Positions 4,250 through 7,046 of a stretch of DNA of 7,046 bases are shown here, piece after piece. This stretch comes from Gemmatimonadota bacterium. Lineage in GTDB: Bacteria > GCA-2686955. Location of the stretch: assembly GCA_002686955.1 (NCBI GenBank), contig NYZA01000151.1, positions 1 through 7,046 on the forward strand, read 5' to 3'. Position numbers and translations under genes: made by a program. The notes under the pieces are model-generated. The model was not told the DNA's origin and searched no databases. It saw only the letters and a list, made by a program, of their open reading frames with translations. Every line of letters begins with the position of its first letter. Positions within the stretch are counted from its first letter, which is position 1.

Positions 4250-4365
4250 GGGTGTTCGCGCAAAACCGGTTGGCGATCCCGGCGTCTCGCACGGGCAATC
4301 GGCCTGTCAGCGTGCTCCCCTCCAGGGTTTCTATCTTAACCGCGGGTGGCTACGATTCAAAGCCT

Positions 4366-4370
4366 GGGGA
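4366..4370 (+). promoter_or_regulatory. Shine-Dalgarno GGGGA for the class V aminotransferase
   Basis: GGGGA lies five bases before the ATG at 4376. It supports that start over an in-frame GTG at 4346, which lacks a good ribosome site and would add ten residues before the conserved N-terminus. Confidence 0.6.
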
Positions 4371-4375
4371 CCTCG

Positions 4376-5500
4376 ATGCGATCGATCTACCTGAACAATG
4401 CCGCGACCAGCTACCCGAAGCCGGCGAGCGTGATCGAGGCGGTCGCCGCGGCACTCGCGGCGCTGCCGGGTAGCCCGGGACGCGGCGGTGGGGGTGGTGA
4501 CGACCCCGTGCGTCGTTGTCGCGGGCGGGTGGCTCGTTTTCTGGGGGTGCGCGACCCAGCTCGCCTGATCTTCACCTCGGGCGCCACCGAGTCGCTCAAT
4601 CTGGTCGTTCGCGGTTTGCCGCTCGCCGGGCGCCGGTTGGTGACGACCGCCGCCGACCACAATTCGGTGCTGCGGCCACTGCATCGCCTACACGATGAGA
4701 CGGGGGCCACGATCGAGATCGTACCGGTCGAAGCGAGCGGCCGGGTCTCGCTCGACGCACTGCGTGCCGCGATCGACTCCGATACCGCCTTGGTCGCCGT
4801 GCCTCATGGATCGAACGTCACTGGGCATGTGCTCGACATCGCCGCGCTCGCACTCCACACCCGGTCGTTGGGGGTGCCGCTGTTGGTCGATGCCGCGCAG
4901 ACCGCCGGTGCGTTGCCGATCGATGTCGACGCTTGGGGGATCGACTATTTCGCCTTCACCGGACACAAATCGATGCTCGGCACCCAGGGAACCGGTGGTC
5001 TGGTCGCCAGCGGCCCTCTGGTCCCTCTCAAGGTCGGCGGAACCGGTGTGCTCAGCCAGAGTCTGGCGCAACCGCGGGAGCTGCCCCTGCGCTTCGAGGC
5101 AGGCACGCCGAACGCGCCCGGCCTGGTCGCACTCGAAGCCGGCGTCGCCTGGATCGAGGGCGAAGGGATCGATTCGCTGCACCGGCGAAAGATGGAACGT
5201 GCGGAGCAGTTGCGGCGCGGGCTCGAGGCGATCGACAAGGTGCGCTTGATCGGTCGGCCCGGTGAGCTGCCGGTCTTCTGTTTCGTCGTCGACGGCGTTC
5301 CGGTGGATGAGCTCGGCCAGGTTCTCGAGGAATCGTTCGGCGTGCACACTCGGGCGGGACTGCACTGCGCTCCGCTGATTCACGACTCGCTCGGGGCCAA
5401 CCCCCAAGGCTCGATTCGCGTGAGTCCTTCGGCTTTCACGACCGTCGAAGAGATCGAGGCCGCCCTCGCCGCGGTCGATACCGTTGCGCGGAGCTGGTAA
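4376..5500 (+). CDS. Class V aminotransferase-fold PLP enzyme, cysteine desulfurase/selenocysteine lyase-like
   Basis: 374 residues, full length for the family. Class V landmarks in order: YLNNAATSYPKP near the N-terminus (NNAATSYPKP 7-16), SPGRGGGG, TSGATESLN (68-76, cofactor phosphate region), DHN with the PLP-stacking His95, VDAAQTAG with Asp172 and Gln175, TGHKSMLGTQGTGG with the Schiff-base Lys198, and RAGLHCAP with candidate persulfide Cys331. These features match cysteine desulfurases and best resemble the TIGR01977 (EF2568-type) subfamily, which has been linked to selenium-dependent molybdenum hydroxylase loci. The expected reaction is removal of S or Se from cysteine or selenocysteine to form an enzyme-bound persulfide or selenide. 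It is not called iscS or sufS because no Fe-S assembly genes adjoin it. The next gene starts 4 nt downstream (operon), and a SelD-like gene converges on the pair. Confidence 0.92.
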   Translation: MRSIYLNNAATSYPKPASVIEAVAAALAALPGSPGRGGGGGDDPVRRCRGRVARFLGVRDPARLIFTSGATESLNLVVRGLPLAGRRLVTTAADHNSVLRPLHRLHDETGATIEIVPVEASGRVSLDALRAAIDSDTALVAVPHGSNVTGHVLDIAALALHTRSLGVPLLVDAAQTAGALPIDVDAWGIDYFAFTGHKSMLGTQGTGGLVASGPLVPLKVGGTGVLSQSLAQPRELPLRFEAGTPNAPGLVALEAGVAWIEGEGIDSLHRRKMERAEQLRRGLEAIDKVRLIGRPGELPVFCFVVDGVPVDELGQVLEESFGVHTRAGLHCAPLIHDSLGANPQGSIRVSPSAFTTVEEIEAALAAVDTVARSW

Positions 5501-5504
5501 GGCG

Positions 5505-5792
5505 ATGAGGCCCGAGGTGATCCACATTCACGACTGCCTCGACGGCACCGTGATCAAAGAGCTGCTTCTCGATCGCGAGATGTGCGGGGGTTTCGTTGCC
5601 CACCTCGGCGAGCTGGGTGAGCTGCGCCACTTCACGGAGTACAAGCGCCCCTTCTTCCGCGTGGAGCGGACGGGAGCCTTCGTTCTCAAGGGAACACAGG
5701 GAAACCGCCGGGTGCGCGCCGTCTTCAACATGAAGGGGCTGAACGAAAACCTCGCCTTGGTGGTGGCCAGGATCAACGCTTGGCAGCGCTGA
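5505..5792 (+). CDS. Small conserved-looking protein of unknown function (95 aa)
   Basis: Not recognised. It starts at an ATG 4 nt after the stop of the class V aminotransferase, with GGAG (5490-5493) upstream inside that gene, so the two are cotranscribed. A TTG at 5484 would add seven residues and overlap the upstream gene without benefit. The 95-residue product is soluble, with alternating strands and helices, two cysteines (Cys11 in HDCLDG, Cys27 in EMCGGF), an aromatic basic stretch (YKRPFFRVER, 46-55) and FVLKGTQGNRRVRAVF. There is no signal peptide, membrane segment or CxxC metal site. Tight coupling to a desulfurase-like enzyme makes a partner or sulfur/selenium acceptor role conceivable, but nothing in the sequence proves it. 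Confidence 0.75.
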   Translation: MRPEVIHIHDCLDGTVIKELLLDREMCGGFVAHLGELGELRHFTEYKRPFFRVERTGAFVLKGTQGNRRVRAVFNMKGLNENLALVVARINAWQR

Positions 5793-5983
5793 ACCCATAG
5801 GGTTCGCGCGAGAATAACTTGCCATTTTGGCGCCCAGATGTGCCGCAGATCTGGTCGATCGGCGAGTCCCGAACCCGGAGGAGTAGCAGCGCTACTTCGA
5901 GGAGTGCGGGGCTCGCCGATCGGCCGGAGATGGGGTGCAGATGGGATGCCAAAATGGCAAGTTATTTTCGCGCGAACCCATAG
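5791..5983. repeat. 10-bp direct repeat GAACCCATAG bracketing the palindrome
   Basis: GAACCCATAG occurs at 5791-5800 and 5974-5983. Six of its bases at the right copy belong to the inverted-repeat tip, and only ATAG lies outside. It may therefore be a target duplication plus end sequence, or a scar of recombination. The left copy overlaps the TGA stop of the 95-residue gene. Confidence 0.55.
5800..5979. repeat. 180-bp imperfect palindrome, possible miniature mobile or structured-RNA element
   Basis: Outer arms 5800-5830 and 5949-5979 are complementary at 30 of 31 positions (GGGTTCGCGCGA at one tip, its complement at the other). After a single bulged A (5946), pairing continues without gaps through 5831-5880 / 5898-5948 to an apical stem GTAGC/GCTAC with a three-base loop AGC (5888-5890). 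The well-paired middle contains CGATCGGCGAG (5856-5866) opposite CTCGCCGATCG (5912-5922). It sits between two convergent genes, where it could stop transcription from both sides. It is far larger than an ordinary terminator, lacks a U-tract, and has flanks ATA (5797-5799 and 5980-5982) like a 3-bp target duplication. It encodes no credible protein of its own. Its right arm covers the last five sense codons and the stop of the SelD-like gene. Confidence 0.85.
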
Positions 5984-7046
5984 CTCTCGAAGAGGGTAGC
6001 CCGGCGTGGGGCGGGCCCTCCCGAGGTTGCGACGTAGCGCTCCCACTCGAAGAGGTTCTCGTCGGGGAAGTCGCCGGTGGTGCGGGCGCGCAACTCATCG
6101 ACGATTTCGATGAGGATCGAGGGAGAGGCGGTGGCGGCCGCGACGCGACCCAAGCGCCACGAGGCGTCGAAACCGATGGCCTCGAGCCCCTCCCGGAAGG
6201 CGGTGATGACCGGGAGTCGGCCTCCGAGAACGAGCGGTCCATTGGTGCTCGCGGTGTGGTCGCGGCGCCCGCGGCTCACGCTCGCCTCGTGGATGAACGA
6301 GAGTTCCTCGATCCGAATCTGCACCTTCGAGAGAGAGGCTGCCTCCTCGAGAACCGCGAGCCCCGGTCCGCTGATATCGGTGGCGAAAACCAAGTGCCGA
6401 TCGGGGTCGAGGGACTCTCCAGTGGCGGGCAGGAACCCGGCGATCAGGTGGGCGACGGGCCAGTTCGAGGTGGCCATTTCGCGCAGCGCATCCACGCGCA
6501 AGGTGTCGATAGCGTCGTGGGGGGCCGAGGCCAGGTGCTCGTGGTGGTGAAGATCGAGGATCGAGAGATCGCCCAGCGGACGGGTGGCCAAGAGCTCCAT
6601 GCCGGGCTCGAGACGATCCAGGCCCGGAACCGCGCGAGGAGTGTGGCCGATGACAGTGGCTCCGACGAGGGGAAAGCCGAGACCGAGCGGGCCCTGGTCC
6701 CGCAAATCGATCGCCACTCCATTCTCGCGATAGAGAGCGACCCCTGCTTCGAAGCCGGCGCGGATCCCGATGATCTGGGCCTCGCTGCCGTCGTACACCG
6801 GAACGACCACGAGCTCTTCGTCGACACCCATCAGAAAGAGATCGTTGAGGGCGTTGTTCAGGGCGATGAGGGCGGTCAAGGGAGACTCGGGGCGGAGCTG
6901 AGAGTCGGCCGTGACGATCGTATCGTTGTTGGAAAGGGTGCAGCCCTGGGCTCTGGGATCGTGAACGAGGCAGTCGAGCACGAGATGGTCGATGGAGCCG
7001 GCGATGCTGTGGCCCTTGCCGAGTACGATCGGCGGGCGCCCCCGCC
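5962..7046 (-). CDS. SelD/PurM-superfamily (AIR synthase-related) protein, N-terminus outside window
   Basis: The frame runs open off the right edge; about 360 residues are visible and the start is not in the window. The GTG at 6981 lies inside the reading and has conserved-looking sequence before it (LGKGHSIAG), so it is unlikely to be the start. SelD-like landmarks (window residues): DTIVTAD 41-47 (compare the STTDF region), ALNNALNDLFLMG 61-73 (compare NAISDIFAMG), LEPGMELLATRPLG 145-158 (compare the GD-LFLTKPLG strand), and FATDISGPGL 220-229 (compare TDVTGFGL). Aspartates equivalent to SelD metal ligands are kept in these blocks. Known members use ATP to activate selenide, formylglycinamidine or related substrates. 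The canonical SelD GCGxK active-site loop is not visible and would fall at or beyond the edge, so true selenophosphate synthase activity is unproven. The last residues GFARK and the TAA stop lie inside the palindrome. Confidence 0.8.
   Translation of the reverse strand, partial: RGRPPIVLGKGHSIAGSIDHLVLDCLVHDPRAQGCTLSNNDTIVTADSQLRPESPLTALIALNNALNDLFLMGVDEELVVVPVYDGSEAQIIGIRAGFEAGVALYRENGVAIDLRDQGPLGLGFPLVGATVIGHTPRAVPGLDRLEPGMELLATRPLGDLSILDLHHHEHLASAPHDAIDTLRVDALREMATSNWPVAHLIAGFLPATGESLDPDRHLVFATDISGPGLAVLEEAASLSKVQIRIEELSFIHEASVSRGRRDHTASTNGPLVLGGRLPVITAFREGLEAIGFDASWRLGRVAAATASPSILIEIVDELRARTTGDFPDENLFEWERYVATSGGPAPRRATLFESYGFARK

Follow-up and report, generated by a model that had tools for sequence, protein, structure and literature searches.

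A probable miniature transposon with a strand-polarized hairpin in a Gemmatimonadota bacterium

The 180-bp palindrome at positions 5800 to 5979 of the window (the whole 7,046-nucleotide stretch of DNA that was analyzed) is most probably a non-autonomous miniature transposon (MITE), a reading to which we assign a probability of about 0.88. A preliminary description of this DNA had raised a MITE as one possibility and had proposed a search for dispersed copies. Many copies with 3-bp target duplications were found in the source assembly (G000; 4.28 Mb in 270 contigs, 84.5% complete), which supports mobility and, together with the terminal inverted repeats, the MITE proposal.

The palindrome and its neighboring genes

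The coordinates given in the preliminary description are exact: positions 5800 to 5979 make up the whole element, and the trinucleotide ATA lies directly on each side (5797 to 5799 on the left and 5980 to 5982 on the right) as the target duplication. Arm pairing, folding, the copies, and the flanking repeat all mark this interval as one whole MITE copy. The terminal inverted repeats are 32 nt each, the left at 5800 to 5831 (plus strand, tip GGGTTCGCGCGAGAATAACTTG) and the right at 5948 to 5979 (minus strand). They are complementary at 31 of 32 positions (97%), as expected of a MITE, and are followed by one extra base, in agreement with the 30 of 31 outer pairs reported earlier. Further inward lie two arms of 55 nt, arm A (5833 to 5887) and arm B (5891 to 5945), which are the 5' and 3' arms of the more stable plus strand. 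The continuous register down to a 3-nt loop that had been described for these arms holds only because G.U and G.A mismatches maintain it; the inner arms are just 71% Watson-Crick. Two tandem G.A loops were located on the plus strand, the first (motif AGAU/AGAU) with its 5' side at 5837 to 5838 and its partner at 5940 to 5941, and the second at 5848 to 5849 with its partner at 5929 to 5930. The apical hairpin (5870 to 5908, plus strand) contains a GGA/GA internal loop and is the part best conserved in L295, an Acidobacteriota relative.

Folding of the plus strand as RNA gave a minimum free energy of -149.8 kcal/mol (z-score, -17.4; 0 of 200 shuffles as good), compared to -118.3 kcal/mol for the minus strand. 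As DNA, the plus strand folded at -79.8 kcal/mol (z-score, -13.8) versus -66.0 kcal/mol for the minus strand. The plus strand is thus clearly the more stable of the two, and for each strand, with RNA and DNA alike, no shuffled sequence folded as well as the element (z-scores of -10 to -17). The element has no open reading frame (ORF) of its own able to encode a transposase, and its 180 bp lie within the 500-bp limit for a MITE. Its left flank (GAACCC-ATA, 5791 to 5799) mirrors the element's own tip (ATA-GGGTTC) and could be what is left of a previous copy or a chance match.

The placement of the palindrome between convergent genes, as first described, is correct in outline. A small ORF with no family assignment (5484 to 5792, plus strand) ends with its stop 7 bp before the element, and a SelD-related gene (5962 to 7044, minus strand) runs off the contig. 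Reconstruction of the empty site, however, puts the insertion within the terminal codons of the gene on the minus strand, whose present stop codon and final codons are supplied by the element: with the flanks rejoined, the C terminus reads ...FESYGFSAAKR before insertion, compared to ...FESYGFARK now. The SelD-related gene matches NF038049, a putative sulfur-metabolism protein (E value of 1.7e-43, below the family cutoff). A cysteine-desulfurase-like enzyme (4346 to 5500; TIGR01977, just under the cutoff) neighbors the small ORF and the SelD-related gene, and a fused cytochrome c/multiheme cytochrome protein (PF13442, PF00034, PF13435) is encoded at 2 to 1855. The genomic copies, including the one in the window, look like neutral insertions, the window copy having re-coded one gene end.

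Copies, target sites, and candidate mobilizers

A whole-genome search of G000 returned 40 scored copies with at least 81% identity on the query strand. The tip GGGTYCGCGCAAGAAT had 174 matches with up to 2 mismatches, compared to 4 for the reversed-pattern control, a number that points to about ninety elements. With the same tolerance, a tip of 21 nt had 120 matches (control, 0). Many G000 contigs end inside an element, and the true copy number is therefore probably larger. No copy of the 180-bp element was found in G001, a genome of the same phylum and family, or in 58 further genomes. The sequence around about 100 G000 tips was read, and 52 elements of up to 181 bp could be paired with readable flanks. 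These fall into size classes of 40, 87 to 98, 151, and 169 to 181 bp, the 40-bp class consisting of two tips only and the 87- to 98-bp class lacking the hairpin top. Many copies are chimeric or truncated. Intergenic placement is enriched: a rough gene caller placed 13 of the 42 classified sites within genes, versus 142 of 236 random TWA sites, and the settings include tandem, divergent, and intragenic ones.

An identical 3-bp direct repeat flanks 27 of the 52 paired elements, compared to 9.1 expected (500 shuffles; maximum, 16); the flanks of the other 25 are not identical, and repeats of 2 or 4 bp show no comparable excess. The target is C/TNA/G (slashes bound the duplicated bases), with a preference for C-T-W-A-G and with TAA or TTA most often duplicated; the window copy has ATA. 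In three cases, a single TNA is shared by two facing element ends (C17:57830/57849, C131:10747/10766, and C244:22402/22421), as expected if a duplicated site is hit again. The TAA and TTA duplications prompted us to consider stop codons as the target, an idea rejected on the finding that 9 of 53 elements sit where an open frame of at least 100 codons ends, versus 13 to 23% of control sites.

These copies bear directly on two other explanations of the palindrome. Its position near two gene ends would suit a bidirectional terminator, or simply a chance palindrome between convergent genes, but copies dispersed among tandem, divergent, and intragenic positions contradict this, as do the fold z-scores given above and the single weak terminator-like match. 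We find this explanation scarcely credible. REPs are 20 to 40 nt long and are not known to leave a target duplication. A REP- or BIME-type palindrome dispersed by a RAYT (Y1) transposase would account for a palindrome in many, mostly intergenic copies; the length of 180 bp, the long (30-bp) terminal inverted repeats, and the 3-bp duplications argue against the large REP-like hairpin that had been suggested and make this origin highly improbable.

Could the element instead be a derivative of an insertion sequence (IS) that is present in G000 and that mobilizes it? IS copies that encode a Transposase_29 protein (PF21804; E value of 1e-138) adjoin tips in G000, where the examined IS ends abut a GGGTYCGCGCAAGAATAAC-type tip or a MITE interior, and one PF21804 copy in the Acidobacteria metagenome-assembled genome G060 has a tip on one side (locus L160). 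The tip-bearing ends at first made this IS a convincing mobilizer, but it was rejected in view of the ends of its relatives and the duplication that it makes. The 28 PF21804 relatives in other genomes have CAGACCTCCTGA-like ends without MITE tips, and 8 of them have an exact 5-bp duplication, mostly ANNNT, versus 1.8 expected. The sole G000 copy with both ends, in contig C108, is nested within a MITE arm and has its own 5-bp duplication, AAGTT (junctions GACAAGTT/CAGACC...GGTCTG/AAGTTATT); therefore, the MITE is a landing site for the IS. The element does not have the same outer ends and duplication as this IS, which is physically linked to MITE tips in G000 yet has its own CAGACCTCCTGA ends, and we consider derivation from it very unlikely. 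Landing in the MITE-arm AAGTT was seen at locus L101 (G000 contig C108, ~63,500 to 66,000) and at L093, L094, L095, and L096. Decayed PF21804 copies occur at L056/L094 (contig C102) and L095 (contig C22), one of those in C22 adjoining an IS30-like transposase ORF. In many phyla, members of the PF21804 family have CAGACCTCCTGA ends and make duplications of 5 bp.

For the MITE that we favor, the GGGYYCGCGCAARAATAA tips would be recognized in trans by a cut-and-paste transposase of the DDE type, which would excise the element and place it at a CTNAG site through cuts staggered by 3 bp. Only the target preference, which resembles that of the PIF/Harbinger-IS5 (PHIS) group, points to an enzyme of this kind. 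The NuwaII group of PHIS transposons offers a published precedent for C/TNA/G, in eukaryotic cases (PMC4482050). Like PHIS transposons and their MITEs (NuwaII, C/TNA/G; PIF/Harbinger, TWA), the element has a 3-bp TNA duplication flanked by C and G, the pattern of a PHIS/IS5-type MITE (PMC4482050). Unlike for PHIS elements, the IS5/Harbinger-type DDE families (PF13586 and PF13359) are absent from G000, G001, and G060, so we do not class the element as a PHIS member, only as one that works like it.

Other candidates for an autonomous partner were also considered. The PF01609 transposases of G000 and of the relatives' genomes have ends without matching tips, and neither the 84.5% complete G000 nor the relatives' loci yielded a transposase flanked by such tips. 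A 934-bp candidate in G060 (contig C311) was rejected, its near tip belonging to an ordinary 157-bp element and its far tip being a stray. A stretch of 1,029 bp in G310 (contig C1; L286:1501-2529) is bounded by two tips and has TTA at either side; it contains no recognized transposase-like ORF and may be a composite or a decayed larger element. Because the assembly is incomplete and broken at many copies, the missing mobilizer in G000 is weak evidence.

Related elements in Acidobacteriota and comparison with known systems

Among 396 genomes of Acidobacteriota, the phylum of G060, six contain at least 5 tips (controls, 0 to 1): G060 (35), G310 (33), G318 (26), G248 (21), G390 (7), and G283 (5). 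A separate count of tips in G060 gave 64. The Acidobacteriota elements have the tips and TNA duplications of the G000 elements, and their interiors differ from those in G000. Their lengths span 102 to 240 bp (157 to 168 bp in G060; 228 to 240 bp in G248, G318, and G390; 102 bp in G283). An interior in common with G000 was found in the G283 element L295 (75% identity over 96 nt; BLASTN E value of 7e-14). The covariance model was built from the G000 elements and L295, so the score of L295 in that search is not independent; the model also picks a G283 element that it does not include (L283; E value of 0.023), and the same search over 80 PF21804 loci as a control gave nothing significant. The apical loop is common to G000 and this second phylum, while the stems differ. 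No description of the superfamily was found in the searchable literature.

In G318, two Acido-Lenti-1 RNAs (RF01687) lie in opposite orientations about 450 bp from a MITE of the superfamily (L299:864-909 and 1010-1055). These are small structured RNAs beside a relative of the element, and the element itself does not match the RF01687 model. That the palindrome could not be assigned to a known family was borne out: it has no Rfam match above the gathering threshold, and plasmid, phage, and viral collections contain no meaningful match. The bacterial MITEs QMITE1 and QMITE2 (Coxiella), Correia/NEMIS, ERIC, and Chunjie are likewise non-coding, with terminal inverted repeats, target duplications, many copies, size classes, and a long stable hairpin. 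The element differs from them in its tips, in its TNA duplication at CTNAG, and in strand-specific G.U and G.A pairing that recurs across genomes and phyla. In Coxiella, the QMITE1 transcript is a very long palindromic small RNA, and QMITE2 contains a palindrome into which another IS inserts (PMC5896051).

Covariation and strand polarity of the hairpin

The preliminary description had also suggested a structured RNA, with covariation as a test. Covariation was above both controls: over 28 sequences, 20 of 52 pairs had changed on both sides, compared to 7.3 ± 1.9 in shuffles and 4 to 7 in slid controls. When right arms were swapped between copies, paired cells dropped from 94.7% to 90.9%. Subterminal blocks (AACTTGTC, AGAATGC, AACTTCCC, and AAGTGGTGA) are matched on both arms, with some mismatched chimeras, and in the copy at C8:22720, arm A has apparently been copied into arm B. 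Quasi-palindrome template switching is an established route for such arm-to-arm copying. The arms are related by descent and arm copying is seen, so covariation alone does not prove selection, and the matched-arm pattern may be partly mechanical.

Strand polarity is not a consequence of arm copying. When elements were oriented by their sequence rather than by stability, the A-first strand folded better in all 35 long G000 elements (mean of -127 versus -95 kcal/mol) and contained 10.2 G.U pairs, compared to 2.5 on the other strand. In five other genomes, the GGGTYC-first strand folded better in 19 of 19 elements, in one of them by just 0.4 kcal/mol. The commonest state was G.T in nine pairs and C.A in one. 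The two tandem G.A internal loops have the form AGAU/AGAU, which is also present in the differently built hairpin of G248. Among variants that depart from Watson-Crick pairing, types shared by at least two copies comprised 28 G.T and 10 A.C (P = 0.005) versus 18 G.T and 17 A.C among singletons; the contrast between shared and singleton types is marginal (Fisher P = 0.057) and treats types as independent although the copies share ancestry. Deamination is only weakly excluded as the origin of the G.T excess: A-T pairs also give more G-T than A-C (16:9 among shared types), and deamination leaves the two fixed tandem G.A loops unexplained.

One way to account for these data is a structured non-coding RNA, or an RNA hairpin at mRNA ends with a function for the host (for example, as a processing site for RNase III or RNase E), that transposition has dispersed and whose RNA functions at each location. 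The strand asymmetry (35 of 35 and 19 of 19), the covariation, and the tandem G.A and apical loops common to another phylum all favor it, as do the precedents of Correia, ERIC, and Coxiella QMITE transcripts (PMC10969869, PMC5896051), and the test named for the RNA suggestion, covariation (which could partly be arm copying), came out positive, with a consistent strand preference. Against it, a link of orientation to transcription was rejected, as copies flanked by tandem genes are oriented without bias (6 in the same direction, 9 in the opposite one); private mutations of recent origin show no preference for the structure (18:17); many copies are chimeric or truncated; and the element has no promoter-like site and no Rfam family. 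On balance, we regard a function at each location as rather unlikely.

To our knowledge, there is no reason why one strand of an ordinary mobile element should pair better than the other. MITE transcripts are known to fold, which is usually seen as a by-product of the inverted repeats. Strand polarity, the G.U and tandem G.A pairs, and the cross-phylum apical loop together suggest that, during spread, selection acts on a hairpin of RNA or of single-stranded DNA. The variant pattern fits selection on source copies followed by neutral decay after insertion: structure-preserving variants are kept in multiplying lineages and not among recent private mutations, and for this reason the hairpin, as RNA or single-stranded DNA, would matter while source copies spread, a less certain step in the mechanism. 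We tentatively propose, as a possibility that we hold at less than even odds, that in this cross-phylum MITE superfamily the strand-specific hairpin, with its tandem G.A loops and conserved apical loop, takes an active part in propagation, for example through binding by a trans-acting factor, and is kept in multiplying lineages but decays after insertion.

The family explains breaks in the G000 assembly, offers natural landing sites to another transposon, and shows a gene end rewritten. The part worth following is a possible role of the hairpin in propagation. The structure is polarized to one strand in six genomes, and older shared G.U and A.C variants differ from recent private ones; whether the hairpin is important for cut-and-paste spread, as RNA or as single-stranded DNA, is now a testable question.
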